IMG/VR virus record: IMGVR_UViG_3300046517_000985
Location: 1 to 28,681 of that record
DNA from: a virus
Strand: one strand, 5' to 3'
Length of the DNA stretch: 28,681 nt
Part shown: positions 193-28,681 of the stretch, piece by piece
Layout: each line of letters begins with the position of its first letter
Numbering within the stretch: the first letter of the stretch is position 1
Made by a program: the position numbers and the translations under genes
The notes under the pieces: model-generated
Told to the model about the DNA's origin: nothing
Database searches by the model: none
The model's input: the letters and a program-made list of their open reading frames with translations, nothing else

Positions 193-2451
193 CTAGGCCG
201 GAAGGAACCCGACGCCGTACAGCATCGTGGAGCCGCCGTTGAAGGTGTCGAACGTGCTGGCCGTCGCGCCAAAGTTCACGAGGTCATCCACGAACACTGT
301 GACCGAGCTGCCGTCCTCGCTGACGACCTCGCCCGTGTTGGCGGAGACCGCCGGCGTCAGCGGAGCCGCGATTGCTGTCGCACCGTTCACTCGAACCTCG
401 GCAGCGATCGTGTAAGGCGTCGAGACTACGCCGGTGTCCGAGATCGCCGTGAAGTACTGCAACGTGCCCTGCAGGTTGGGCCACCGGAGCTGGACCTCCG
501 CCTCGCGAACCGCGATCGCTGTGTCGGCTCGGGCGAAGTTGCCGCCCACGGCCTGCGCCACGCCGACGCTGCCCGACGAGAGGCCGATCCGCGAGGCCGA
601 GAAGGTCTGGCCCGAGGTCAGCACGCACCAATTCTCGAAGCCGGTGTCCATGGCGTAGGCGGCCATGACGCGCACCGAGCCGGCGCCGCTCAGACCGGTG
701 GCGTTCATGTCGCCGTAGTCGGTCAGGAACGTCGCGCCGCTCGTGGGCCGAGCGAGCGTGAAGGCGACCGCCCCCGTCGCGTTGTCGACCGCCGTGTAGG
801 CCAGCGCCGCGCCGGTGTTGGACCCGCCGACCCGAGGCTGGATCGTGCCGGTGTGCGCAGCCGGGAATTGGGCCGAGAGAGCCGAGAAGATCTGATTCGT
901 CGGCATCGGACAGAACGAGGCCTCGAAGCTGTTGAGCCCGAAGGCCACGGCATTCTGGCCGTTGCCCGCGCTTCCCTCGGGCGCGATCTTGTAGTTGGCC
1001 GAGTTCGGGAACACGGTCGTCGCGACGACGGGGGAGGCGCTCGTGCAGGCGAACATGAAGCCGTTGACGATGAGCGCCGCCGAGGTCGGGCTGCTCGCGA
1101 CGCCGCGGATGCTGAGCGTGTCGCCGGCGAGGAGCGCGATCGTGCCGTCGAACCGGCCTCCGGTGTCGCCGGCCCCGAGCGTGATGGCCCAGAGCGGCTG
1201 CGCGGCGCCGTTCACCATCGGGGTGAAGGTCAGCGTCTCGCCACCCGGCAGCGCCGCGGGCATTTGCACCGTCCACGAGTTGATCGTGATGTCCTGCAGG
1301 AGCTTGTGGTGCGCCGCGGCCTCCGTCGAGAGGAAGCCCGCATTCCATCCGAGGCCGGTGTAGGCCGTCGTGCCGCCACCATCGTCGACCGAGTCCGTGA
1401 GGAAGGTCGGCATCACGAACCGCTTTCCTGCGGAGTCGAACTGCGCGTCGACCGTCACGTCTGTGGTCACGGTCACCGAGACGGGGTTGTCCATCTCGTG
1501 GCCTGCCGGGACGTTCGTCCACTGCGTGAACACCGAGCCCATATCCGGCGTCGCCGCGAGGCTAACGACGGAGCCCGAGACGTACGAGTCGTGGTCTACC
1601 CCAGGGAAGTTGATTACGCCTGGTGTGCTCGTGACCGTGCCCGTTCCAGTGCCCGACTCCGTGACAGTGAGCGTGTGGATGATCTCGGCCGGAATCGGCG
1701 CATCGGGCGCGATCAGCGTCATGGTCAGCGTCGGGGTCGTGATGGTGAGCGGCCCGCCCGTCGTCTGGAATCCAATCAGCTCGACGTACTGCCCGGCGGT
1801 GAAGTGGTACTGCGTCCCGAGGGACTGCCACCGGAACAGGGAGCCCTGGTTGATCGGGTACTCGATCGCGGAGAGGAGCTTCGTGCCGCCGAAGCGGAGG
1901 AAGAGCGCGAGGTTGCCCGAGGTCGGGCCGGTGCCCCACGTGCCCCAGGCGTTGATTTGGTAGATGCCGGCGACAGGGGCGGAGAGCCGCGTCGGATGGC
2001 TAACGGAGAAGAACGGATCGAACGTCGGCAGGATGACGCCCGTATCGTAGTTGACGGCATCGAACACGATCGCGGTCTGCGTCTTCGTGGTCAGGCTCTG
2101 CCCGACGGTCTTGAAGACATTCGCGCCGTGCGAGTGGATCGTGCCGCCGCTCAGGCTGCCGGTCGCGGGTGTGTACCAGAACGCTGGCGGCGAGCCCGCG
2201 ATGGTCTCCTTGATGTTCGCGATGACGAAGCGGAGTTGTTCCAGCTCGGTCCCGAGGGCGACTTCGGGCTGCGCCGTCGAGAAGAGGTACGGGTCCGACG
2301 TCGCCCGGAACATCGTCAGGTCGTCGGAGTGCGCGCCGCAGCTCGCCGGGATGTCATTGTCGAGGTGATTCCGGTGCGCGGTGTTGTACAGCGGCGCATC
2401 GACGATCGTGCCCGGCGATCGGGTGATGTGGATGTAGAGGCCCGTGCTCAC
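193..2451 (-). CDS. Large receptor-binding / tail-spike-like protein with C1q-like and InlB-type domains
   Basis: A 752-aa protein starting at a GTG (2451) that overlaps the stop of the upstream gene as GTGA. The open frame runs further upstream, but this start aligns the N-terminus with the two upstream paralogs. Residues 4-30 (GLYIHITRSPGTI...YN..H.NHL) and 69-94 (ELEQLRFVIANIKE...FWYTP) match the conserved module of those two proteins. Residues about 125-250 look like a C1q/TNF-type jelly roll (RLSAPVAGIYQI, FTAGQYVELIGFQ). Residues about 259-338 resemble the divergent InlB B-repeat (LTVTESGTGTGTVTSTPG ... Y.SGS.VSL.ATPD.GS.FTQW ... V.AQF). Residues 345-752 are a long beta-rich region not recognised. 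The likely role is host-surface binding at the tail tip: the N-terminus attaches to the virion and the C-terminus binds the receptor. The family call is from motif reading, not a search. Confidence 0.75.
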   Translation of the reverse strand: MSTGLYIHITRSPGTIVDAPLYNTAHRNHLDNDIPASCGAHSDDLTMFRATSDPYLFSTAQPEVALGTELEQLRFVIANIKETIAGSPPAFWYTPATGSLSGGTIHSHGANVFKTVGQSLTTKTQTAIVFDAVNYDTGVILPTFDPFFSVSHPTRLSAPVAGIYQINAWGTWGTGPTSGNLALFLRFGGTKLLSAIEYPINQGSLFRWQSLGTQYHFTAGQYVELIGFQTTGGPLTITTPTLTMTLIAPDAPIPAEIIHTLTVTESGTGTGTVTSTPGVINFPGVDHDSYVSGSVVSLAATPDMGSVFTQWTNVPAGHEMDNPVSVTVTTDVTVDAQFDSAGKRFVMPTFLTDSVDDGGGTTAYTGLGWNAGFLSTEAAAHHKLLQDITINSWTVQMPAALPGGETLTFTPMVNGAAQPLWAITLGAGDTGGRFDGTIALLAGDTLSIRGVASSPTSAALIVNGFMFACTSASPVVATTVFPNSANYKIAPEGSAGNGQNAVAFGLNSFEASFCPMPTNQIFSALSAQFPAAHTGTIQPRVGGSNTGAALAYTAVDNATGAVAFTLARPTSGATFLTDYGDMNATGLSGAGSVRVMAAYAMDTGFENWCVLTSGQTFSASRIGLSSGSVGVAQAVGGNFARADTAIAVREAEVQLRWPNLQGTLQYFTAISDTGVVSTPYTIAAEVRVNGATAIAAPLTPAVSANTGEVVSEDGSSVTVFVDDLVNFGATASTFDTFNGGSTMLYGVGFLPA

Positions 2452-4716: not shown

Positions 4717-6447
4717 CTACTTTCGCGGGGATTGGGTCGTGTCACCAGGGCGGAAGCCCAGGAAGAAGTGCGTCAGCGCGACGTCCTCACCATAGTTGGT
4801 GTTCTCGAAGAAGAGCGAGATGCGTCGTCCCGAGCCGGCGTTCAGGCGCCGCACGATCGAGCGAACGCCCCCGCCGGCGAGCGCGGAGAAGCCGATCACG
4901 AAGGCCCCCGGCGTCGTGGCCGTGAGTCCGAGGGGCTGCCCGCCTTCGAGCAGCGGCAGGTCAATCGTCTGTCGTAGGATCCCATCGACGAGCACCGAGA
5001 GCGTCACCGTCGAGTTGGTGAACGGGACGTACTCGACCTCGATGTTGTCGAAGATCTTGTTGCGGTTCGCAAACTGGACGAACTTGTCACCCAAGTTCAG
5101 GCTCTCGAACTCGCCCAGGTTCGTGTGCGGCGTCTGCACGCGAAATGGGTACGGGCCGCCGTCCCACGTCGTGCGCGACTCCTGTTCGAGCTGGATGATG
5201 TTCGACAGGTAGTCGCCGTACATCGGCTTGTCGATGAAGTCCGCAGGATCGCGCCAGAGCGCGAGCGACGCGGGCTTGTCGCGATACGAGTACGAGAAGC
5301 GCGGCTCGCCCTGCTTGCGGCCGACCGCGGTGAAGTCGAACATGAAGCGCGCCGTGTTCTGACCCGAGGCGTCGGGCTGGGGGATCGAGAACGTCGCGGT
5401 CTGCCAGAAGGGCTGGTACACCGACTGGATCTGATTGAGCAGCGAGCGGTCGTAGGCGTCCAGCAGGAACTGGTAGATTTCGAGGTCCATCGCGAGGTTC
5501 GCGGTCTCCATGTTCTGCTGTCCGGTGGCAGCCTGCAGGACGGCCGAGAACAGGTAGAACTGCCCGTCCGAGCCCATGAAGAGGATGTCGTTTTCGAGCT
5601 GCAGCGCCGCGTTCGGCGTCGGCGCCACGCCGATCACGTCGGTGACCTGCTGCGCGAGCCAGTTTGCCGGGCTGGTGTCCCGAGCATCGAGCAGGAAGAT
5701 GCCTCGGGGGTATTTGAAGATGACGATGAATCCCTGGTAGTTGCGCAGCGCGTAGATGCGCTCCCCGACGCCAGGAAAGATCGGGATCTGCTGCGACGCG
5801 GTGTCCAGGGACGGATCCACGGACATGAAGTCGGTCGGGTCTTGGAACTCCGATGCGTACAGGAAGTGCGGTGCGTTCGTGTTGCCCGCCGCCCAGAGCC
5901 GGCCGCCGTTCACGAGGCCCACGATCGGCGGGTGGCTGTCGTTCCAGTCGGCGGCCGGCGTCGTGATCACCGTGTCGTTCGTCACATCACCGTTCACGAA
6001 CGTCGGCAGGAAGTTCGAGCGGAACAGGAACAGCTTTCGCGTGGCGCCGCCCGTCTCCTGCCCCGCGGTCACGAAGTACCCGAAGCGCGTGCCGGGGCCC
6101 GAGGTCGTCGTGGACTGGTGCGCGCCCGGATCCGAGCCGCCGTTGTCGGTGTAGTACGTGTGCCCGTCGCCGCGGAGATGGACGACGCGCTGCACGGCCT
6201 CGGTCGGGTGCCAGTCGTTCAGGGCGACGATGACGCGGTCGGCGGGATCGGCCGCGACCGTCGTGTTGGTGCCGAAGAGCTTGGTGCCGGGCTCTTTCCG
6301 CCAATGGTCGTAGCGGAAGACCGCCCCCTCCGCCGTGATGACGTTCTTGAGGAGGATCTTCGAGGGGTTCAGGTTGACCGACAGGCCGCCCACGCCACAC
6401 TGGACGGCCGCGATGTTGCCCTCGTAGCCCGGATCACCCTTCGCCAT
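4717..6447 (-). CDS. Beta-propeller tail (nozzle / head-closure-like) protein
   Basis: A 576-aa protein with no signal peptide. The central part (about residues 175-305) carries the pattern typical of podoviral tail proteins with a beta-propeller, of the P22 gp10 / T7-nozzle kind. Key strings are NGGRLWAAGNTNAPHFLYAS, QDPTDFMSVD, GERIYALRNYQGFIVIFK and ENDILFMGSDGQFYLFS: a presumed coordinate list, a sample event, a range check and a display string repeated per blade. The C-terminal part is beta-rich (TLSVLVDGILRQTIDLPL ... RRISLFFENTNYGED). The inferred role is to form the tail channel below the neck and close the head after DNA packaging. It directly follows the adaptor gene (9 bp gap), the usual neck-then-tail order. 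The short-tailed virion interpretation rests partly on this gene. Confidence 0.68.
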   Translation of the reverse strand: MAKGDPGYEGNIAAVQCGVGGLSVNLNPSKILLKNVITAEGAVFRYDHWRKEPGTKLFGTNTTVAADPADRVIVALNDWHPTEAVQRVVHLRGDGHTYYTDNGGSDPGAHQSTTTSGPGTRFGYFVTAGQETGGATRKLFLFRSNFLPTFVNGDVTNDTVITTPAADWNDSHPPIVGLVNGGRLWAAGNTNAPHFLYASEFQDPTDFMSVDPSLDTASQQIPIFPGVGERIYALRNYQGFIVIFKYPRGIFLLDARDTSPANWLAQQVTDVIGVAPTPNAALQLENDILFMGSDGQFYLFSAVLQAATGQQNMETANLAMDLEIYQFLLDAYDRSLLNQIQSVYQPFWQTATFSIPQPDASGQNTARFMFDFTAVGRKQGEPRFSYSYRDKPASLALWRDPADFIDKPMYGDYLSNIIQLEQESRTTWDGGPYPFRVQTPHTNLGEFESLNLGDKFVQFANRNKIFDNIEVEYVPFTNSTVTLSVLVDGILRQTIDLPLLEGGQPLGLTATTPGAFVIGFSALAGGGVRSIVRRLNAGSGRRISLFFENTNYGEDVALTHFFLGFRPGDTTQSPRK

Positions 6448-12139: not shown

Positions 12140-13099
12140 TTAGTTGGAGGCGACGTGGATGACCTTGGCCTCGCCGGCGAGCGCCGAGGTCCACAGGAGC
12201 TGGAAGCCGTAGACCCCGTACCAGCCGATGAGGCGCTGGCGGCCGAGGTCGGTGGGGATGCCCGCGCGCAGCTCGGGCGTCACCGCCTCTGCGAACGCGA
12301 CGGCCTCGCGGCCGAAGATCACGGCCTCACCGAGGACGTTGGCGCCGGCCGACGTCCACGTGGAGGTCAGCGCGGTCGCGTGGTTGGACTCGACGAACGT
12401 CATGTCCTCGATCATGCCCACTTCCCCGTTCCACTTGCGCTCGGGGTCCTTGTAGGCCGCCCAGCCGATGAAGAGCGGGTCGCGCTTGATGCCGCGGAGG
12501 CCGAACGTGTTCGAGATGCAGACGTAGTCCGTCTCGTCCTTCACGCCCGGAGCGAGCAGGGTGCCGACGAGGTAGTCGCGCGCCGTCTCGATCAGGAAGA
12601 AGTTCAGGTTCGTGGTCGCGGTCGCGCCCGGCGAGCCCGAGGTCGACGTGGTCACCGCGGCGGTGCCGGTCGGCGTCATCACGGTCGCGGCGGTCTTGAA
12701 CGCAGCCGCGGCGGAGGCGTCGAGCACCAGCTTCTGCTGGTCGACGAGGCGCTGGCTGATCCAGTCTTCCGGGTCGTAGTGGTCGAGGTCTTCGAGCAGG
12801 CCCGAGTACGGAACGGCCTGGCCGAACTCCTTGACGATGACGGTCTGCACCTTGTAGTTGAACGGCAGCTCGGGGATGTTGCTGTTTTCCGAGAGCTGCG
12901 CCGACGTGGGCTCGGCCAGGGTCGGCACGAGAGGGATCGTGACCGATTCGCCCATCTTCTTGCCGAAGGCAGGCTTGATGCTCACGTGCTCGAAGAACCG
13001 AGTGCGCGCGATCGCCTGCTTGAAGTACTCCTCGCTGAGGGCGTTGTTCTTCGCGACGCCCGCGGGTACGTCGAACGTCCAGCTCATTCCGGTTGCCAT
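12140..13099 (-). CDS. Major capsid protein, N4-gp56-like HK97 fold
   Basis: A 319-aa protein starting MATGMSWTFDVPAGVAKNNA. Residues 28-60 (KQAIARTRFFEHVS ... ESVTIPLVPTLAE) fit the N-arm and first strands. The segment 226-241 (GEVGMIEDMTFVESNH), followed by VIFGREAVAFAEA and the C-terminal DLGRQRLIGWYGVYGFQLLW at about 284-303, matches the N4-gp56 family of capsid proteins. That family has the HK97 fold and forms the icosahedral head. The length is normal, with no N-terminal protease domain. Ribosome-binding AGGA sequences lie at -8 to -16. The gene follows the scaffold gene after an 82-bp gap, the longest among the head genes. The gap carries a small hairpin and an AATAAT stretch that could allow extra expression. 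Confidence 0.85.
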   Translation of the reverse strand: MATGMSWTFDVPAGVAKNNALSEEYFKQAIARTRFFEHVSIKPAFGKKMGESVTIPLVPTLAEPTSAQLSENSNIPELPFNYKVQTVIVKEFGQAVPYSGLLEDLDHYDPEDWISQRLVDQQKLVLDASAAAAFKTAATVMTPTGTAAVTTSTSGSPGATATTNLNFFLIETARDYLVGTLLAPGVKDETDYVCISNTFGLRGIKRDPLFIGWAAYKDPERKWNGEVGMIEDMTFVESNHATALTSTWTSAGANVLGEAVIFGREAVAFAEAVTPELRAGIPTDLGRQRLIGWYGVYGFQLLWTSALAGEAKVIHVASN

Positions 13100-14962: not shown

Positions 14963-15510
14963 AGCGTCTCCGTGAACCGCTCGTCGAAGGCCTGCGGATT
15001 CGGGGACGTTGCGCTGTGGTTCAGCGTGATGTAGCCCTTGCGCTTCAGGCCCGTCAGCTCGATCCCGAGGCGGCATTGCTGGATGTAGCAGCCCTCGACG
15101 GCCTTCGCGAGAGTCGCAGCCCACTCGGGCACGTAGCCATGCGCGGGCTTGTCGGTGCCGTCCTTGAGGAGCGCGGGGCGCGCTACGTTGAGCCACCACA
15201 TGAACGCTTCGCGCGTGATGTCGTCGGCCTCGCGAACTTCCTCGCCGCTGATGCGGCCTTCGCTGTCGTATCGGATCGCCATTTTCGCCGTGTCCTCTAA
15301 GCGGATCATCCGCGCCAAGGTGAGCTGGTTGTCCATGAGACGGCCGATGCCGTCCGCGAGTGCCCGCTCCCACCCCGTCGCCACCCCATCCTCGATCCGG
15401 CGGCGATGCTCGCGCCACCAAATGTTCCACTCGACTCCGGTCGGGAAGGACGCCTTTTCGAGCGCGCGGAGTCCTTCCTGTGCTACGTCTGGCCGTGCGG
15501 CTGTCTGCAC
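14959..15510 (-). CDS. Hypothetical protein
   Basis: A 183-aa soluble protein from a GTG start (15510) that shares one base with the preceding stop (TAGTG). It is mixed helical, with Trp-rich patches (GVEWNIWWREHRRRIEDGVA, REAFMWWLNVARPALL), and ends SPNPQAFDERFTETL. No motif or family was recognised. It sits between the basic proteins beside the portal and the phosphoribosyltransferase gene and is probably co-translated with both. Confidence 0.6.
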   Translation of the reverse strand: MQTAARPDVAQEGLRALEKASFPTGVEWNIWWREHRRRIEDGVATGWERALADGIGRLMDNQLTLARMIRLEDTAKMAIRYDSEGRISGEEVREADDITREAFMWWLNVARPALLKDGTDKPAHGYVPEWAATLAKAVEGCYIQQCRLGIELTGLKRKGYITLNHSATSPNPQAFDERFTETL

Positions 15511-16184
15511 TACAGCTTTCCCTTCTTCTTGCCTCCGTGGAGCTTTTTCTTGACCTCGGCCCGCGCCATCTCGTGCTCGCCCCGCTTCTTGGAGTGCGAC
15601 GCGAGATGCTGCTGGTGATACGCGATCGATGCGGTGTCGCCCATCTTCTCGGCCCGCGCCTTGCCGCGCCGGTGATCACGCTCGTGCCGGGCCTCGTGCA
15701 TGATCGAATCGCCGTGATGGCTCATCGAGAGGCGCAGGTCAGCCGGCGACTGCGGGGGCATGTTGCGCGCGTCGGCCGCGTAGTCGGCGCCATCGAACCG
15801 ACGGTCACCCGGCTGCGGCAGACGAAGGTATCCAGCCTTCGCCACGGTCGGGCTTGTCACTGCGCCCTTTGGCTTGTGGCCGACGTTGTGCCCCTCGGTC
15901 GTCACGTCGTCGTTCGCGAAGTGCCCGAGGTACTGCATCGGATCGTTCATGCCGTACGACTTGCTCGGGCCGCCGCTGTCTTGCGCGCCGCCCATGTCCG
16001 AGGCGGTCGAGACGACGTGCGGCATCGGCGTACCCGGCGACTTGGCGGGGTCGCGTGGCGCGGTCGACGTGCTGCGCGTCATGCCGCCCGAGGCCTTGAG
16101 CGGCGACGTGCGCGCGGAGGCGGCCAGATCCGTTGAGCGCTTCGCCATCGCGGCGCGCTGGTTCGCGAGTTCGAGGTCGTTCAT
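15510..16184 (-). CDS. Basic protein with YLGHF/GHN motif
   Basis: A 224-aa protein. The N-terminal 75 residues are Ser/Thr/Ala/Pro-rich and probably disordered. Residues 82-100 hold the motif PMQYLGHFANDDVTTEGHN, which recurs in two neighbouring genes. The last 70 residues are very basic and His-rich (HHGDSIMHEARHERDHRRGK ... RAEVKKKLHGGKKKGKL), which suggests nucleic-acid or membrane contact. The start overlaps the upstream stop (ATGA). No enzyme domain is seen. From the location between portal and scaffold I infer an internal virion or ejected protein, but there is no direct proof. Confidence 0.65.
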   Translation of the reverse strand: MNDLELANQRAAMAKRSTDLAASARTSPLKASGGMTRSTSTAPRDPAKSPGTPMPHVVSTASDMGGAQDSGGPSKSYGMNDPMQYLGHFANDDVTTEGHNVGHKPKGAVTSPTVAKAGYLRLPQPGDRRFDGADYAADARNMPPQSPADLRLSMSHHGDSIMHEARHERDHRRGKARAEKMGDTASIAYHQQHLASHSKKRGEHEMARAEVKKKLHGGKKKGKL

Positions 16185-17821: not shown

Positions 17822-19882
17822 CTACGGCTGCGGCGCGCCGGGCACCATCCCGCTCGGCGTCTTGGGCGCCATCGCACCCCCGAGGGCCTGCTGATCCTGG
17901 CTCGCGTCGACCATCGCGGGCGGCGAGCCGCCGTTGCCGTTCGCAGCGGCAGCCGGCGGCGGCGCGCCTCCGCCCTGCGGCGGGGCCGTCGAGCCGGGCG
18001 GCGCGTTCGCGGGGTTCGTGACCTGCGCCTCGTTCAGCGACTCCTGCATCATCTGCTGCGCTTCGTCTTGGTTCTTCTCGTCCTGCGTCTTTTCGAGCGT
18101 GCTCGGGTCGACGCCCGAGTTGCGCATGATCTGCTCGGTAAGACGCTGGTAGGAGTACTTCTGCCCGTAGGCCTGCGCGAATTGCGGGTTCTGACCCATG
18201 AGCTGCAGGACGTTGGCGAGCTTCGTCAGCGTGCGCGATCGCGCGGTCACTCCGCGGAGCCCGCGGCACTTGAACTTGGCCGACTGCGCGAGCAGGACGA
18301 AGCGCTCTTCGTTCGAGAGCTGCGTCAGCTCCAGCACCCGCTCGGGCCCGAGGATCTGCACGAGGGCGGGGTCGGTCAGCTTGTGGTCGAACTCGTACTG
18401 CAGGATCGTGAGCCAGCCCAGCTCGAAGATCGGCTCCAGCCAGGTGTCCTCGGTGCGCGCGGCGAGCGACTCGAAGAGCGAGCCCGAGGCCTGCATGGCT
18501 TCGACGACCGCGGTCGCGCTCGACTCTTGCGAGGGCGTCTGCCCGAGCTTCAGGTCGTTCGTCGCCATCGCGGTCTGGAACTCGCGCATCGCGAGCTGGA
18601 AGATCTCCATGCCGTACTGCGGCATCTCGCCCGAGTCGATGCGCTCGATGGCCTTGTAGCCCTCGGGCACGTTCGGACGAAGCAGGAAGGTCGCCGCCTG
18701 CGGGATGCCTTCTTGGAAGTCCTCGGCGTTCTCGACGAAGTCCGACCGGAGCTGATGCTTGCCCCAGACCGCGCCCAGCGCGCCGTCGAACATGAGACTC
18801 ATCAGCTCGTTCAGGAACTGCCAGGTGTTGACCGCGTCATCCGCGAGCGCCTTGTGGACCGTGCTGTTCGGCGTGCGGAGAAGGGCGGCCGAGGCGAACG
18901 GCCGGCGCTGGTGCCAGAACGGGTTCGGCGTCGGTGGCCGCAGCATCTTGCCGTTGCAGGTCGTCCAGAAGCAATTCGTCGCGAGCACTTCGCACGTGTC
19001 GGGATCGATCAGGTCGCCCCAGAACTCGCGCACGCGCACTTCGTCGGGGTCATGCGCGACGAACACGACGTCCTGCGTGACGCGCTTGTACATATCCGAG
19101 TACGTGGCCTCGGCGCTTCCCTTGATCGCGTTGATGACCTTGGGGTCGTAGTCCGGGTTGGCCCCGAGGTCCGAGATGTTCATCGTGACTTCGTGGATGA
19201 CGAACTTGTTGAGGAGGCTCGGGTCGGGGAACCAGTCCTCCCATGGGATGAGGTCGACGGCGAGACGGAACGACTGCAGGGTGTCCGCGACGACCCGAGG
19301 GCGGCCCATCTCGACGAGGCTGTACGCGTCGAGGTCGTTGCGGTGGCCGAACTTCCCCTTCTGGGGCTTCGACTCCACGAGCCGGTACTGGTACTGCGTC
19401 GTGAACTTCGCGTAGACCTTCGCGGTCATGATCGATTCGAGCAACGCGCGCTTCACGCCGTCGCTGATCAGGTTCGCGATGTTGTACGACGTCTCGGGCA
19501 CATCGCCGGGAACGTAGATGCGGTCGAGGTAGTACTTGAGGAAGGCGCCGATGATGTCCGGGTCGATGACCGGATCCCCGATGCCGATCGGGTCGACCGT
19601 GAGCCAGTCGTTCGAGTCGGTGAGGCCGCGTTCGAGCGTGCCGACCGCCTGCTCGACGCTGATGCCGAACTCGCTGACGGTCTGCTGCGTCTGCCACGGG
19701 AGCTTGTGCGACCAGTCCTGCTGCGAGTGATACGCCTGCCAGTTGGCGAGGTTCTTCGAGCGGCGATTCCACCGCGCCTGCCACGACTTGTTCCAGTTGT
19801 AGTCGGAGATGCGCGTCGCGCGGCTCGCCAGGTCCGTAGCGGACGTGGTGATGATATTCAATGCGGTCGACTTGCGCGCCAC
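17822..19882 (-). CDS. Portal protein
   Basis: A 686-aa protein that forms the head vertex ring through which DNA enters and leaves. It lies directly after the large terminase, the usual order. Residues 25-70 (DYNWNKSWQARWNRRSKNLA NWQAYHS) and the central region (EVRVREFWGDLIDPDT ... HQRRPFASAALLR) resemble portals of podoviruses with long clip and stem regions. Around 450-490 lies the pattern ETATAV-like QESSATAVVEAMQASGSLFE, common in P22-like portals. Residues about 625-686 are a Pro/Gly/Ala/Gln tail (NPANAPPGSTAPPQGGGAPP), probably disordered. The start is GTG (19882) with GAGG about 8 nt upstream. The length is typical for this class. Identification is by context and pattern; no residue is diagnostic alone. 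Confidence 0.8.
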   Translation of the reverse strand: MARKSTALNIITTSATDLASRATRISDYNWNKSWQARWNRRSKNLANWQAYHSQQDWSHKLPWQTQQTVSEFGISVEQAVGTLERGLTDSNDWLTVDPIGIGDPVIDPDIIGAFLKYYLDRIYVPGDVPETSYNIANLISDGVKRALLESIMTAKVYAKFTTQYQYRLVESKPQKGKFGHRNDLDAYSLVEMGRPRVVADTLQSFRLAVDLIPWEDWFPDPSLLNKFVIHEVTMNISDLGANPDYDPKVINAIKGSAEATYSDMYKRVTQDVVFVAHDPDEVRVREFWGDLIDPDTCEVLATNCFWTTCNGKMLRPPTPNPFWHQRRPFASAALLRTPNSTVHKALADDAVNTWQFLNELMSLMFDGALGAVWGKHQLRSDFVENAEDFQEGIPQAATFLLRPNVPEGYKAIERIDSGEMPQYGMEIFQLAMREFQTAMATNDLKLGQTPSQESSATAVVEAMQASGSLFESLAARTEDTWLEPIFELGWLTILQYEFDHKLTDPALVQILGPERVLELTQLSNEERFVLLAQSAKFKCRGLRGVTARSRTLTKLANVLQLMGQNPQFAQAYGQKYSYQRLTEQIMRNSGVDPSTLEKTQDEKNQDEAQQMMQESLNEAQVTNPANAPPGSTAPPQGGGAPPPAAAANGNGGSPPAMVDASQDQQALGGAMAPKTPSGMVPGAPQP

Positions 19883-19897
19883 GATGGCCTCACTCTA

Positions 19898-21538
19898 CTA
19901 CGGGCGTCGGGGAGGAAGAATCCCGCCAGACGAGCCGCGGCTGATGCGCCCATCGGCGCCGTAGGAAGATGGATAGTGGTTCACGGAGCGCGCACCCGGT
20001 GATGCGTTGGGGCCGCCGCGCCCGAGGTAGCCGGGCATCGGGATGTGGCGGAGGCGTGGCCGCTCCTCCGCGACATTCTGCGGGACGGGATCCGTGAACG
20101 CGACCGCGTAACCGACGGCGTCCGTCGCGTGCGTGCGCTGGTAGTACGGGTCCTCGGGATGATGGACCTTCTTGAGGCCGCCCCGCGCGTCCCGTAGCAC
20201 TTCCTCGAAGTCCTTGTGCAGCTCGACGCAGGCGGGGCCGGCGAGCAGGCGCACACGCCCGTCGGATCCCGAGAGGGCCCGGTTCATCGCGTTGAGGCGG
20301 TCGGGCACGAACGGGTTGCGCTTGGGGAGGAACTCGCGGATCGGCGCTGGGTAGCCGCGCAGCGTCTCGTGCATGAGCGCGTAGTTGCTCGTGCTCGTCT
20401 GCACGCTGCGGTTCTTGCCGGTCTGGTCGCCGTAGATGTAGATGGGCGCAGACCACGTCGGGTAGAGTCGGCGGAACTCCTCGGTCATCGACGGGATGTT
20501 GCAGATGTCCATCTGGATCTCGTCGTAGAACTTCCAGCAGTCGGCGTCGTGCTGGCCGATCTCCCACACGCACGGGGAGACGTTGAAGTCGACGCAGAGG
20601 CAGAGCGGGAGACGCGGATCCATCCGATCGGGCGTGAGGTAGGGGTCGAAGTGAACGGCCCGAGCGTACGCCGGGTACGCGAGCGTTCCCCCGATGCTGG
20701 CGAGCAGCTCGCCGTCGAGCCGGATGCGCGCCTCCATGCTGCCGGGCGGGAACATCGAGGCGAGACGCTCGACCTCTTCGCGTGGGATGTGCTTGTTGTG
20801 CCGGATGCCCATCGAGAAGATGTCGAGGAACCGGCCAGGATTGCGATCGCTGTTCTCGTGGTTGCCGGCCGCCCACCATGGCTTGATCTTCTCGGGGTAG
20901 TACCAGCTCACGCCGCCGGCCTGCCCGAGGGGAGGCAGGAGTGTGGCCGCGAGGCGCACCATGAGCGAGCGCCCGCCGCCGGGCGACCGGAACGTCGCTT
21001 CCTTGTAGACGTCCCACTCGCAGATCTCGTCGAAGGCCACGAGGTCGCGACCGGCCGACTGGAACTTGTCAGCGCCGGCATCCGCGGACTTGAAGCCCAC
21101 GAGCGAGCCGTTCTTGAGCTTCCACGTCTGGTCGTTGATGTTCCAGCCGGCGATCTCGCAGGACGGGATGAAGGCCTTGTGCGACTCCGCCTGGGTGTAC
21201 GCGGTCTCGACGATCTTGGGCTGGATGCCTTCGCGCACGAGGCGTTCGGAGAGCCCGACGACCCAGATCGACATGGCGCGGTCGGTCACTGCGAGGCGGC
21301 CACCCGAGGAGTACGCGGTGCCGGGGTTCGGATTGCCGAAGCGCGCGTAGGACGCCACGAGCGCGGCGAGCGCGTCGGACTTGCCCGAGCGGTTCGCGCC
21401 GAGCAGGGCGACCTCGGGCTTCTTCGATTCGAGGAACATGCGCTGGCGCTCGCCGGGTTCCCACTGGCGGAGCGGATCGTTCTGCCAGCGCGACTGCAGG
21501 ATCTGCGCGGCGCGGGCGGCGTCTTCGAGGTCAGCCAT
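19898..21538 (-). CDS. terL: Large terminase subunit
   Basis: The 546-aa ATP-driven packaging motor with a nuclease domain. Numbered from the ATG at 21538, the ATPase domain has Walker A GANRSGKS (47-54) and Walker B LVAFDE (166-171, with D170 and catalytic E171). The RNase H-like nuclease domain has its acidic residues in CVDFN (D317), GDQTG (D371) and HATDAVGYA (D473). It cuts the concatemer and fills the head through the portal. The order small terminase candidate, TerL, portal is typical. An in-frame GTG one codon upstream (21541) is also possible; both overlap the preceding stop. The C-terminal 60 residues are Gly/Pro/Ser-rich and probably flexible. The length is normal and all motifs are intact. 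Confidence 0.93.
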   Translation of the reverse strand: MADLEDAARAAQILQSRWQNDPLRQWEPGERQRMFLESKKPEVALLGANRSGKSDALAALVASYARFGNPNPGTAYSSGGRLAVTDRAMSIWVVGLSERLVREGIQPKIVETAYTQAESHKAFIPSCEIAGWNINDQTWKLKNGSLVGFKSADAGADKFQSAGRDLVAFDEICEWDVYKEATFRSPGGGRSLMVRLAATLLPPLGQAGGVSWYYPEKIKPWWAAGNHENSDRNPGRFLDIFSMGIRHNKHIPREEVERLASMFPPGSMEARIRLDGELLASIGGTLAYPAYARAVHFDPYLTPDRMDPRLPLCLCVDFNVSPCVWEIGQHDADCWKFYDEIQMDICNIPSMTEEFRRLYPTWSAPIYIYGDQTGKNRSVQTSTSNYALMHETLRGYPAPIREFLPKRNPFVPDRLNAMNRALSGSDGRVRLLAGPACVELHKDFEEVLRDARGGLKKVHHPEDPYYQRTHATDAVGYAVAFTDPVPQNVAEERPRLRHIPMPGYLGRGGPNASPGARSVNHYPSSYGADGRISRGSSGGILPPRRP

Positions 21539-22088
21539 CACTCGGCTCCTCCGGGCGCGTCCAGCCCGAGGCGGCGTCGGTCACGAGCTTGCGAAGCTGG
21601 ACCTCGGAGAGGCCATCGAGCGATCCGCGGTCCTCGTCGCCGGCGAGGAAGGCACGCAGGCGCACGGCCTCGTCCTTCGCCTTGACGGCCTGCATGGTCA
21701 TCTTGTTCAGCCGGTCGAGCATGATCGAGACGCGGTTCGAGGCGTCCATGACCGTCGCCATGGCTTCGCGCTGCACGTCGACCGCGGCCTGCGCTTCCTC
21801 GGGAGTGCGGTCCTTGGGGGCTCGGGCGAGCGCGACGGAGAGCTGCAGGCGTTCCAGCTCGTTCCCGAGCAGCTCACGGAGCTGGCTCATCGTGCCCGCG
21901 AGCATCGGGGTGTACTCCTGTAGCAGCTCGGCGCCTGAGCGCGCGTTGTGGACGAGCGTGTCGATCACGCTGTCGAGCGACTCGGGCTCGAACCCGCCCT
22001 TCGAGCGCATGCGCTTCTCGACCGTGACGGGCAGACCCTTTCCCGAGCCGTCCGTTGCGGAGCCGTACGTCATGGAGACCTTACCCAT
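21531..22088 (-). CDS. Possible small terminase subunit
   Basis: A 185-aa protein starting MGKVSMTYGSATDGSGKGLP. Residues about 50-150 are mainly helical and probably coiled-coil (LRELLGNELERLQLSVALAR ... SIMLDRLNKMTMQAVKAKDE). The C-terminus (SLDGLSEVQLRKLVTDAASG) may be a small folding unit. It is encoded immediately before the large terminase, with the two frames overlapping, which is the usual place of the DNA-recognising small subunit. No clear helix-turn-helix was identified at the N-terminus, so the call is from position and helical content only. It also overlaps the upstream 56-aa gene by 8 bp. Confidence 0.5.
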   Translation of the reverse strand: MGKVSMTYGSATDGSGKGLPVTVEKRMRSKGGFEPESLDSVIDTLVHNARSGAELLQEYTPMLAGTMSQLRELLGNELERLQLSVALARAPKDRTPEEAQAAVDVQREAMATVMDASNRVSIMLDRLNKMTMQAVKAKDEAVRLRAFLAGDEDRGSLDGLSEVQLRKLVTDAASGWTRPEEPSDG

Positions 22089-26070: not shown

Positions 26071-26505
26071 TCAGAACCCCGCGAGCGAGAAGTGCATCGG
26101 GTCGAGCCGGCTGTGGAAGTCGCCGCCGTAGGTGAAGCCGAAGAACGCGAACGCCTCGACGATGCGCGAGTCGAAGCGCTTCGCTGACCCGAGGGGGTAC
26201 TCATTCGGGCAGAAGTCGCCGGCGATCCCCCACGAGTGCGCGCTCAGGTGACCGGGATGCGCGCGGATCGAGCGCTGCTGGAAGATGCCGCCGTAGGAGT
26301 CGACCAGCGACGACAGCCCGAGGTCTTTGATGCGGGTGAGCGCGCCGACGAAGTTCGGCACCGCGAGCCGGTGCGCCCGGCTCTTGTGGACGAGCGCGGA
26401 GCCGTAGAGCAGCGGGTAGGGCAGGTCGAAGAGGACGATGTTCTTCGCCTCGAAGTCGAGGAGGGTGGCGTCGCCGTACTTCGCGAGGACTTGATCGTAC
26501 GTCAT
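26071..26505 (-). CDS. Endolysin, M15-family peptidase
   Basis: A 144-aa enzyme that would cut the peptide stem or crosslinks of peptidoglycan to release progeny. The zinc-site motif SAHSWGIAGDF is at residues 88-98 (H90 and D97), and the third ligand and active segment is GGDFHSRLDPMHF with H138 at residues 127-139. This matches the M15 family (VanY / Ply L-alanoyl-D-glutamate or D,D-carboxypeptidase group). No signal peptide or cell-wall-binding domain is present, so it would depend on a holin. GAGGT lies 5 nt upstream of the ATG. It is a minimal single-domain form, as usual for phages of Gram-negative hosts. Confidence 0.88.
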   Translation of the reverse strand: MTYDQVLAKYGDATLLDFEAKNIVLFDLPYPLLYGSALVHKSRAHRLAVPNFVGALTRIKDLGLSSLVDSYGGIFQQRSIRAHPGHLSAHSWGIAGDFCPNEYPLGSAKRFDSRIVEAFAFFGFTYGGDFHSRLDPMHFSLAGF

Positions 26506-27619: not shown

Positions 27620-28146
27620 GGGCGCTCCTGCCGAATGGGATCCGAGGTCGGTGAACGCGGCCGACTCGACGGACCCGGGTGACGTGCGCATGCCTTGCAC
27701 CGTACCGCGATCGCGTGGCGGCGTCCACCGATGATGCCGGCCCGAGGGAACCCCGCCGCGGCGAGCTTCGCGTAGAAGGGTGCGCCCCCGCGGTGCGCGG
27801 CCGCCGGCGCCCCGTCGTCCGGCACGATCGTGAGCCCGAGCTGTCCGAAGGCGGTCGAGCCGCACGAGCCGCAGGCGCCGCCGTACGCCATGACCGCCGC
27901 GAGGCGCAGGCGCTCGCGCCCGCCGACGGTCGCCGCCTTGGCGTAGGCGCGCTGCCCGAGCTTGGGCGGCGTGAGGCCGGCGCGCCGGGCGCGCGCGTAG
28001 GCGCGGCGGTGGTCGGCGCGCGTGGCCGCCCAGCGCTTGTAGCAGGCCGGGCAGTAGCCGCGGCGCGTCATCTTCGTCGCGCAGCCCTGTCCCGAGCAGG
28101 AGTACTCGGGTTCCGTTGACTCTGGCGGCAAGCGATTTTGCTCCAT
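27616..28146 (-). CDS. Degenerate HNH-like zinc protein
   Basis: A 176-aa protein from the ATG at 28146; a TTG eight codons upstream is possible. Residues 17-39 (CSGQGC ... GYCPACYKRW) match the small zinc knuckle common at the N-terminus of phage HNH proteins. Residues 88-153 follow the layout of phage HNH endonucleases (YGGACGSCGS ... LTIVPDDGAPAAAHRGG ... FYAKL...GFP ... AVRCKACA), with cysteines at 92, 95, 150 and 153. The usual catalytic Asp-His after LTI is replaced by Val-Pro, and the Asn of the last CxxCN is lost. The protein probably binds zinc and DNA but cannot cut by the usual mechanism. It is the first gene after the control region. Confidence 0.6.
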   Translation of the reverse strand: MEQNRLPPESTEPEYSCSGQGCATKMTRRGYCPACYKRWAATRADHRRAYARARRAGLTPPKLGQRAYAKAATVGGRERLRLAAVMAYGGACGSCGSTAFGQLGLTIVPDDGAPAAAHRGGAPFYAKLAAAGFPRAGIIGGRRHAIAVRCKACARHPGPSSRPRSPTSDPIRQERP

Positions 28147-28194
28147 GGCCCGACCGTAGCACAGATCCAATCCTTTTGCATAGCCTCATGGTAA

Positions 28195-28223
28195 ATTTTG
28201 CAATCCGCCGAGGGGAACTGCAA
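28195..28223 (-). promoter_or_regulatory. Candidate leftward sigma70-type promoter
   Basis: Reading the minus strand, TTGCAG (28223-28218), a 17-base spacer and CAAAAT (28200-28195) make a weak -35/-10 pair, set in a short AT-rich patch just upstream of the first leftward gene. The hexamers match poorly in part, so this is a tentative call. Confidence 0.3.
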
Positions 28224-28325
28224 CGGCTGTGGCAAGGACAAGAGTGCTATGGCACCCCCTAAAGCACTGTCCCTATCGAAGTCGCACGCACCCGCGCCCA
28301 CGCATCTGCTGCAGCATCCGACACG

Positions 28326-28342
28326 TTGGCACGCGCCTTGCA
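28326..28342 (+). promoter_or_regulatory. Sigma54-like -24/-12 element, rightward
   Basis: TTGGCACG-CGCC-TTGCA fits the sigma54 consensus TGGCACG-N4-TTGC, with GG and GC exactly ten bases apart. A start near 28354 would read rightwards through the operator region. No enhancer-binding site was identified. Confidence 0.45.
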
Positions 28343-28377
28343 CGTCAACGGAAAGGTGCCGGCCCGGCGAAAGGCGT

Positions 28378-28410
28378 AGCAAGATCCGTGCCTTAGCAAG
28401 GAACGTGCCA
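28378..28410 (-). promoter_or_regulatory. Tandem sigma54-like elements, leftward
   Basis: On the minus strand TGGCACG-TTCC-TTGCT (28410-28395) is followed with a 17-bp step by AGGCACG-GATC-TTGCT (28393-28378). Both have the ten-base GG-to-GC spacing and point toward the late gene block. The tandem copy suggests either two promoters or a repeated protein-binding site of the form GGCACG-N4-TTGCTA. Confidence 0.45.
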
Positions 28411-28519
28411 GCCACGCGACGCTCGCGCTCACGCCACGCGCCATGCGTAGCCCGCATTCGGCATGCCGGAGTGCGTGAGGTCGGCGCTAGCGCTGGCGTC
28501 CGTGGCCGGTATCGCATGT

Positions 28520-28538
28520 GCTATAGGGTCTGGGTGAG
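28520..28538 (+). repeat. Operator-like direct repeat, copy 1
   Basis: GCTATAGGGTCTGGGTGAG, repeated 81 bp to the right (28601-28619) with one mismatch. A third start, GTGCTAT at 28675-28681, is cut by the window edge. The spacing and the neighbouring promoter suggest binding sites for a phage repressor. Confidence 0.6.
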
Positions 28539-28548
28539 CAACAAGGGT

Positions 28549-28563
28549 GGTCATGACCGGTCA
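28549..28563. repeat. Overlapping palindromes
   Basis: GGTCATGACC (28549-28558) and TGACCGGTCA (28554-28563) are two perfect ten-base palindromes sharing five bases, between the two direct repeat copies. They are candidate sites for a dimeric regulator. Confidence 0.45.
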
Positions 28564-28600
28564 GTGTCCACTTTGAGACGGCCCGAGTGACCACGCAGAT

Positions 28601-28619
28601 GCCATAGGGTCTGGGTGAG
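28601..28619 (+). repeat. Operator-like direct repeat, copy 2
   Basis: GCCATAGGGTCTGGGTGAG, the second copy. Its first part (CCATAGGGT at 28602-28610) also pairs as an inverted repeat with ACCCTATGG at 28625-28633. Confidence 0.6.
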
Positions 28620-28633
28620 TGATCACCCTATGG
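28602..28633. repeat. Inverted repeat near the right-edge promoter
   Basis: CCATAGGGT and ACCCTATGG are perfect nine-base inverted copies with a 14-base centre that includes the palindrome GTGATCAC. This looks like a dimer-binding operator. Confidence 0.55.
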
Positions 28634-28642
28634 TATGTCCCC

Positions 28643-28670
28643 TTGACCTGTTCACCACCCAGAGTATATG
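28643..28670 (+). promoter_or_regulatory. Candidate rightward sigma70-type promoter
   Basis: TTGACC (28643-28648), 16 bases, then TATATG (28665-28670) resembles a -35/-10 pair directed off the right edge. The spacer contains CACCCAGA, the reverse complement of TCTGGGTG from the nearby repeats, so a bound repressor would cover the promoter. Confidence 0.45.
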
Positions 28671-28681
28671 GCGGGTGCTAT

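Follow-up and report, generated by a model that had tools for sequence, protein, structure and literature searches.

Bacterial promoters read by the sigma54 (RpoN) RNA polymerase have the -24/-12 consensus YTGGCACG-N4-TTGCW. The sigma factor is present at the order of a hundred molecules per cell and has nitrogen and stress genes among its targets. Titration of regulators by binding sites is known from datA, which acts on DnaA, and from the multicopy inhibition caused by nif promoters. At its promoters the sigma54 polymerase forms a stable closed complex that is opened only by an activator (PMC9770992, PMC2680985). In E. coli, regulators can be titrated with synthetic decoy sites (PMC7826281), and sigma54 controls the bacterial exterior, namely flagella, polysaccharides and lipopolysaccharide (PMC3162934).

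The sigma54 binding motif and the principle of site titration are already known. What appears to be new is the occurrence of arrays of such sites in viruses, the rules of their spacing and the fact that bacterial genomes almost lack them, and no report of sigma54-site arrays in phages was found in the open-access literature. The viral sites have the same motif as bacterial -24/-12 promoters, down to the flanking T and A/T and the ten bases from GG to GC, but they are clustered 16-19 or 24-30 bp apart or head-to-head and are not oriented by genes. Like datA, the nif multicopy sites and the decoys of PMC7826281, they are clusters of perfect sites, not promoters of neighbours, that could sequester a scarce regulator. 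They differ from those systems in that they occur naturally, on phage DNA, and have a sigma factor as their target, titration being proposed here from sequence.

The window, the whole stretch of 28,681 nucleotides that was analysed, is virus record IMGVR_UViG_3300046517_000985, a linear fragment whose genes read leftwards. A non-coding control region of about 530 bp (28147-28681), cut on its right side by the contig end, precedes a leftward late operon. The first gene of this operon, P0001 (27616-28146, minus strand, start at 28146), encodes a Cys-rich, HNH-like protein that gave no family match, and no convincing ORF was found in the record to its right. Small proteins are encoded after P0001, and the operon further contains a peptidase-M15 match (26071-26505, leftward), the terminase large subunit (19898-21541, minus strand, PHROG 2) and a portal or head-tail adaptor protein (17822-19882, minus strand, PHROG 332).

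The control region holds three exact copies of GGCACG-N4-TTGC within 85 bp, one pointing right and two in tandem pointing left, as the original prediction had it. Element 1, TGGCACGCGCCTTGCA (28327-28342, core 28328-28341, plus strand), is an exact consensus match and faces the contig end. Element 2, AGGCACGGATCTTGCT (28378-28393, core 28379-28392, minus strand), matches the core exactly, and element 3, TGGCACGTTCCTTGCT (28395-28410, core 28396-28409, minus strand), is again an exact consensus match. Elements 2 and 3 repeat with the 17-bp period and the ten-base GG-to-GC spacing first noted, and both point left to the late operon, whose first start codon, at 28146, lies about 220 nt downstream. 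The outer letters of TGGCACGCGCCTTGCA, AGGCACGGATCTTGCT and TGGCACGTTCCTTGCT are also those of the sigma54 consensus TGGCACGN4TTGCW, with the exception of one A for T, and GG and GC lie ten bases apart inside it, as they should in a sigma54 (-24/-12) element.

The cluster stands out from its background. Exact matches to GGCACG-N4-TTGC are absent from the rest of the record, the same pattern read backwards has no match in it, and 1500 second-order Markov shuffles gave a mean of 0.089 exact sites per record, with a maximum of 2 and not one pair of sites within 85 bp. The probability of three exact sites within 85 bp by chance is about 3e-9. A weight matrix built from the sigma54 consensus found only these three sites at 15 bits or more, against 0.17 expected. 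Sites with one mismatch number 6 in the whole record against 3.5 expected, which is not unusual, so that the signal of the window lies in the exact sites and their clustering.

Other elements of the control region lie to the right of the cluster. Two 26-bp repeat copies, CGCATGTGCTATAGGGTCTGGGTGAG (28513-28538, plus strand) and CGCAGATGCCATAGGGTCTGGGTGAG (28594-28619, plus strand), are candidate operators or enhancers. Copies of GCYATAxxxTCTGGGTG are seen at both places and inverted at about 28650-28672, and one of them makes GGGTGA-N4-TCACCC, with arms CCATAGGG/CCCTATGG; by their appearance they look like operators for some regulator. A weak sigma70-like promoter, TTGACC-N16-TATATG (28643-28670, plus strand, 3 mismatches), points right, away from the cluster. 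Rfam gave no RNA family in the control region, and a search of the window for enhancer-binding sites returned neither an NtrC nor an IHF match.

A terminase search led to L016 (G007), a 63-kb record with 65% identity in the terminase, 73% in the portal and 92% in another protein. The idea that related phages carry the same elements was borne out in part: L016 lacks an exact site, but a near-consensus one, CGGTACGATTCTTGCA (5108, plus strand), is the sole good site in the corresponding gap before the first gene and faces the operon. Matrix matches of at least 14 bits number 6 in G007 against about 2.3 expected by chance, so the support from this site is moderate. The place of P0001 is taken in L016 by P0002, a Cys/His-rich, HNH-like protein whose likeness was judged by eye. 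The two phages share a leader element, TAGGGGGTGCCATAGC, between the sigma54 site and the first gene (28246-28261, minus strand, in the record; 5174-5189, plus strand, in L016). It sits in a hairpin whose stems differ yet pair in both, AGTGCT/AGCACT in the record and GCGGCT/AGCCGC in L016; folding supports the hairpin in the record (z -2.3), while in L016 it is not the best fold, and Rfam gave no match for it. Close relatives that extend past the right end of the record were sought with the terminase and with the conserved protein of 12140-13099; these queries gave only L015, L016 and L293, none of which has an intact equivalent of the sigma54 cluster.

Beyond this family, the 17-bp tandem of GGCACG-N4-TTGC is found in six further viral contigs. 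When gaps of 0-30 are allowed, IMG/VR has at least 120 stretches with tandem pairs, compared to 9 with the reversed pattern in the same collection. Triple tandems occur in 55 viral stretches and in 25 stretches of 257 Gb of bacterial genomes. At most three of the 25 bacterial matches (L152, L167, L168) are sigma54-like, as judged by a T before GG throughout and a GC followed by A at least once, and triple arrays with sigma54 context are thus practically absent from these bacterial genomes. Convergent overlapping pairs, in which two sites stand head-to-head with 22 fixed letters, were found in 94 viral stretches, where about 0.03 would be expected by our own estimate. Once similar loci are removed, 145 distinct ones remain in viruses, and they carry the sigma54 consensus in full. 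The letters that were not part of the search agree with it: T precedes GG at a frequency of 0.89 and T or C stands before that T at 0.76, while A/T follows GC at 0.82 and 0.77. This recurrence of the full consensus in some 145 distinct loci, unsearched letters included, gives strong support to the identification of the elements as sigma54 (-24/-12) sites.

The N4 spacer is mostly free, with C preferred at its last letter and T scarce at its first. When one family is aligned, the first pair has the same sigma54 letters in every sequence and the flanks differ, and a de novo motif search of the masked flanks returned chiefly further sigma54 variants (TGGCATG-N4-TTGC). By sequence, selection on the sites acts on the -24/-12 letters only. 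Adjacent tandem sites lie 16-19 or 24-30 bp apart, with 20-23 almost empty; the 17-bp tandem of the record was correctly described, but it falls within the preferred 16-19 bp spacing of the class and is no oddity. For head-to-head pairs the distance is 17-23 bp, out of a permitted 15-26. A transcriptional hairpin was considered for these pairs and rejected, the N4 spacers of the two arms not being complementary in the printed arrays.

Phages with arrays span 33-68% GC. Phage records of 30-147 kb have their sites mostly in one region, and reversed-pattern counts are near 0; G028 has 10 sites in 0.5 kb of 44 kb and G037 has 14 in 1 kb of 65 kb, and the maximum for one phage record is 31 sites with at most one mismatch. 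The 147-kb phage record L010 has about 20 sigma54-like sites in 700 bp (15289-15990), among them eight consecutive sites spaced by about 27-37 bp, with weaker -24 elements. No clusters were found in terminase relatives from Caulobacter, Rhodoferax, Methylophilales, Brevundimonas and three environmental genomes, and blastn with three tandem sites as query found none in an annotated phage collection. Since isolated relatives of array phages lack arrays, the feature is dispensable.

Sites are 22 times denser in non-coding DNA, where 82 of 94 loci have their arrays. Divergent junctions hold 37 of 59 arrays, compared to 33 of 251 background gaps, and at 57 of 62 loci a terminase, portal or other structural gene is directed away from the array. 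Tandem arrays point toward the terminase operon at 8 of 24 loci and away from it at 16. In one-directional gaps 33 sites agree with the gene direction and 70 oppose it (14 loci versus 7), and in divergent gaps 102 sites point toward the farther start versus 70 toward the nearer, counts that come from a home-made gene finder, from sites that are not fully independent and from loci of at most 57% GC, a ceiling set because the self-trained gene finder does not work on DNA as GC-rich as this record. Sigma70-like promoters flank the arrays 50 times, compared to 6 in shuffled flanks, with 36 directed away from the array versus 14 toward it. In L013, single sites lie 90-130 bp behind leftward operons and point away from them, and two of these sites adjoin perfect TTGACA-N17-TATAAT promoters. 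The A+T fraction of the region that would be melted shows no rise (0.446 versus 0.466). The class displays the sequence features of a decoy array, with several near-consensus sites in a non-coding cluster and no gene-directed orientation; only three sites make up the cluster of the record. The orientation, sigma70 and A+T results, together with the lack of RpoN and activator domains described next, fit binding without transcription of the neighbouring genes better than they fit ordinary promoters.

Protein domains and regulator sites were also surveyed. Fifty array phages have no RpoN-type DNA-binding domain and no activator domain above the cut-off, with one sub-threshold PF00158 match (G055). 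Several families have NtrC-type palindromes, TGCACCAN3TGGTGCA, next to their arrays, and GCACC-N5-GGTGC is found at 5 loci against 0.25-0.4 expected. This recalls glnAp2-type promoters activated by NtrC, as a few of the palindromes stand 130-155 bp upstream of a sigma54 site. The likeness ends there, for equally many lie downstream, without upstream bias and at many distances, and the record has no such palindrome. Near-perfect NtrC sites adjoin sigma54 sites in L245 (5396/5456), L228 (4811), L251 (7235/7410), L006 (3949/3971) and L184 (8499). IHF-like sites near arrays number 30 against 8.2 expected, a 3.7-fold enrichment.

Another palindrome, GTTAGTGAGYRCTCACTAAC-like or GCGAAGTGAGYRCTCACTTCGC, is found beside arrays at 7 distinct loci against 0 expected, and we know of no owner for it. 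Its positions include L121 2178, L266 12775 and 12859, L197 14061 and 14095, L252 6315 and L245 5557, among others; it was not found in the record. In L079 (740-920) repeated ACCACAAGCCGTTGTGGT palindromes and GTTGGTTAAAGCTGACCA repeats adjoin the sigma54 array and are possibly additional host-regulator sites. Two tandem perfect DnaA boxes (TTATCCACA) lie inside the array of L069 at about 70-100. An RNA-family scan of 13 loci gave only pistol ribozymes and a tRNA, both in L129, an array-bearing phage contig with two pistol ribozymes (71-133 and 351-416, minus strand).

Several explanations compete for these observations. Chance or a compositional artefact could draw on nothing but the unremarkable one-mismatch count; it is refuted by the shuffles, with a probability of about 3e-9 for the record cluster, and by the reversed-pattern controls in the same collection, and we give it next to no weight. 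The original prediction had offered, as another possibility, that the tandem pair is an iteron or a repeat for a phage protein; in this explanation the repeats serve, as iterons or operators, a protein encoded by the phage and have nothing to do with sigma54. Repeats that are both tandem and inverted do give a control region without genes the look of an operator region, and the phage of the record is too diverged for such a protein to be identified. Iterons would come with a cognate phage protein and with a site that differs between lineages, but here one motif, the full RpoN consensus, recurs at some 145 loci in unrelated phages of 33-68% GC, a constancy that a phage's own regulator would not have, and the RpoN-type domain is missing from the 50 phages surveyed, so we find this explanation very improbable. 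Bound RpoN polymerase could instead have a local role, neither as promoter nor as sink. Placed behind divergent phage promoters, or close to the DNA end where packaging starts, it would serve as a landmark, an insulator or a roadblock. The outward-pointing sigma70-like promoters, the terminase or portal genes reading away from the array and the single sites of L013 would agree with this, but the number, spacing and direction of sites vary widely among phages and no fixed geometry relative to one promoter or end was found; we deem such a role unlikely.

Use as working sigma54 promoters is a more serious contender. Whenever an enhancer-binding activator of the host, for example NtrC, is at work, the late operon would be transcribed from the tandem pair, and genes to the right, past the end of the contig, from the single site. 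The phage programme would thereby be tied to the nutrient or stress state of the host. In line with the initial idea of late promoters, two of three sites in the record face the operon, and in L016 the near-consensus site has the same place and orientation and is followed by the shared leader element; the NtrC-type palindromes upstream of some sites in other phages, the IHF-like enrichment and the frequent position at divergent junctions are also in its favour. Against it, site orientation across the class does not follow the genes, head-to-head overlaps and arrays of 10-14 sites are no promoter design, NtrC positions have no upstream bias and the neighbouring genes seemingly own sigma70-like promoters; the window itself has neither an NtrC nor an IHF site. 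We rank promoter use second to a sink for the class, a lesser but real possibility, especially in this record.

We privilege the hypothesis that the RpoN RNA polymerase of the host docks with high affinity at the three sites, the record cluster being a small example of a widespread viral class whose main role would be that of a sink; taken as a whole, this statement has, in our estimation, close to an even chance of being right. Binding of RpoN at the sites is well supported by the sequence, and the function is what we infer. The holoenzyme would occupy the sites as stable closed complexes that seldom fire, and the sites, multiplied by the copy number of phage DNA, would act mainly as a sponge that keeps sigma54 polymerase away from host promoters. 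The sink is favoured as the main role of the class because the closed complex is stable and few sigma54 molecules face many sites: with about a hundred per cell, the near-consensus sites of one genome, as many as 31 and multiplied as phage DNA is copied in infection, could tie up much of the pool. Overlapping head-to-head pairs cannot be fired independently. Some points speak against a sink, since three sites are few for one, two of them face the late operon, as does CGGTACGATTCTTGCA in L016, the IHF-like enrichment near arrays is as for activated sigma54 promoters, sites 17-19 bp apart are probably not filled by polymerase simultaneously, and the arrays are dispensable to isolated relatives. 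For the record alone the gap between the sink and promoter readings narrows, since two of its only three sites face the operon; given a host activator, these two could also fire into the late operon.

In some phages NtrC would likewise be drawn off host promoters. That many uncultured phages carry virus-specific arrays of perfect sites, tandem, head-to-head and sometimes accompanied by NtrC sites, as DNA sponges for both RpoN polymerase and activators, reprogramming host transcription without any phage protein, is advanced tentatively, as a proposal somewhat short of evenly balanced. During infection the host may lose surface, stress and nitrogen functions controlled by sigma54, and since sigma54 runs exterior, nitrogen and stress genes, its loss could affect superinfection, defence and metabolism. 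These findings suggest that phages may sequester this host regulator or turn it to use in some other way. Should the sites prove to be promoters, phages across a broad class would be reading the nutrient regulators of their hosts. If phages titrate RpoN by DNA alone, this would be a takeover strategy invisible to gene-by-gene annotation that can be found by motif search.
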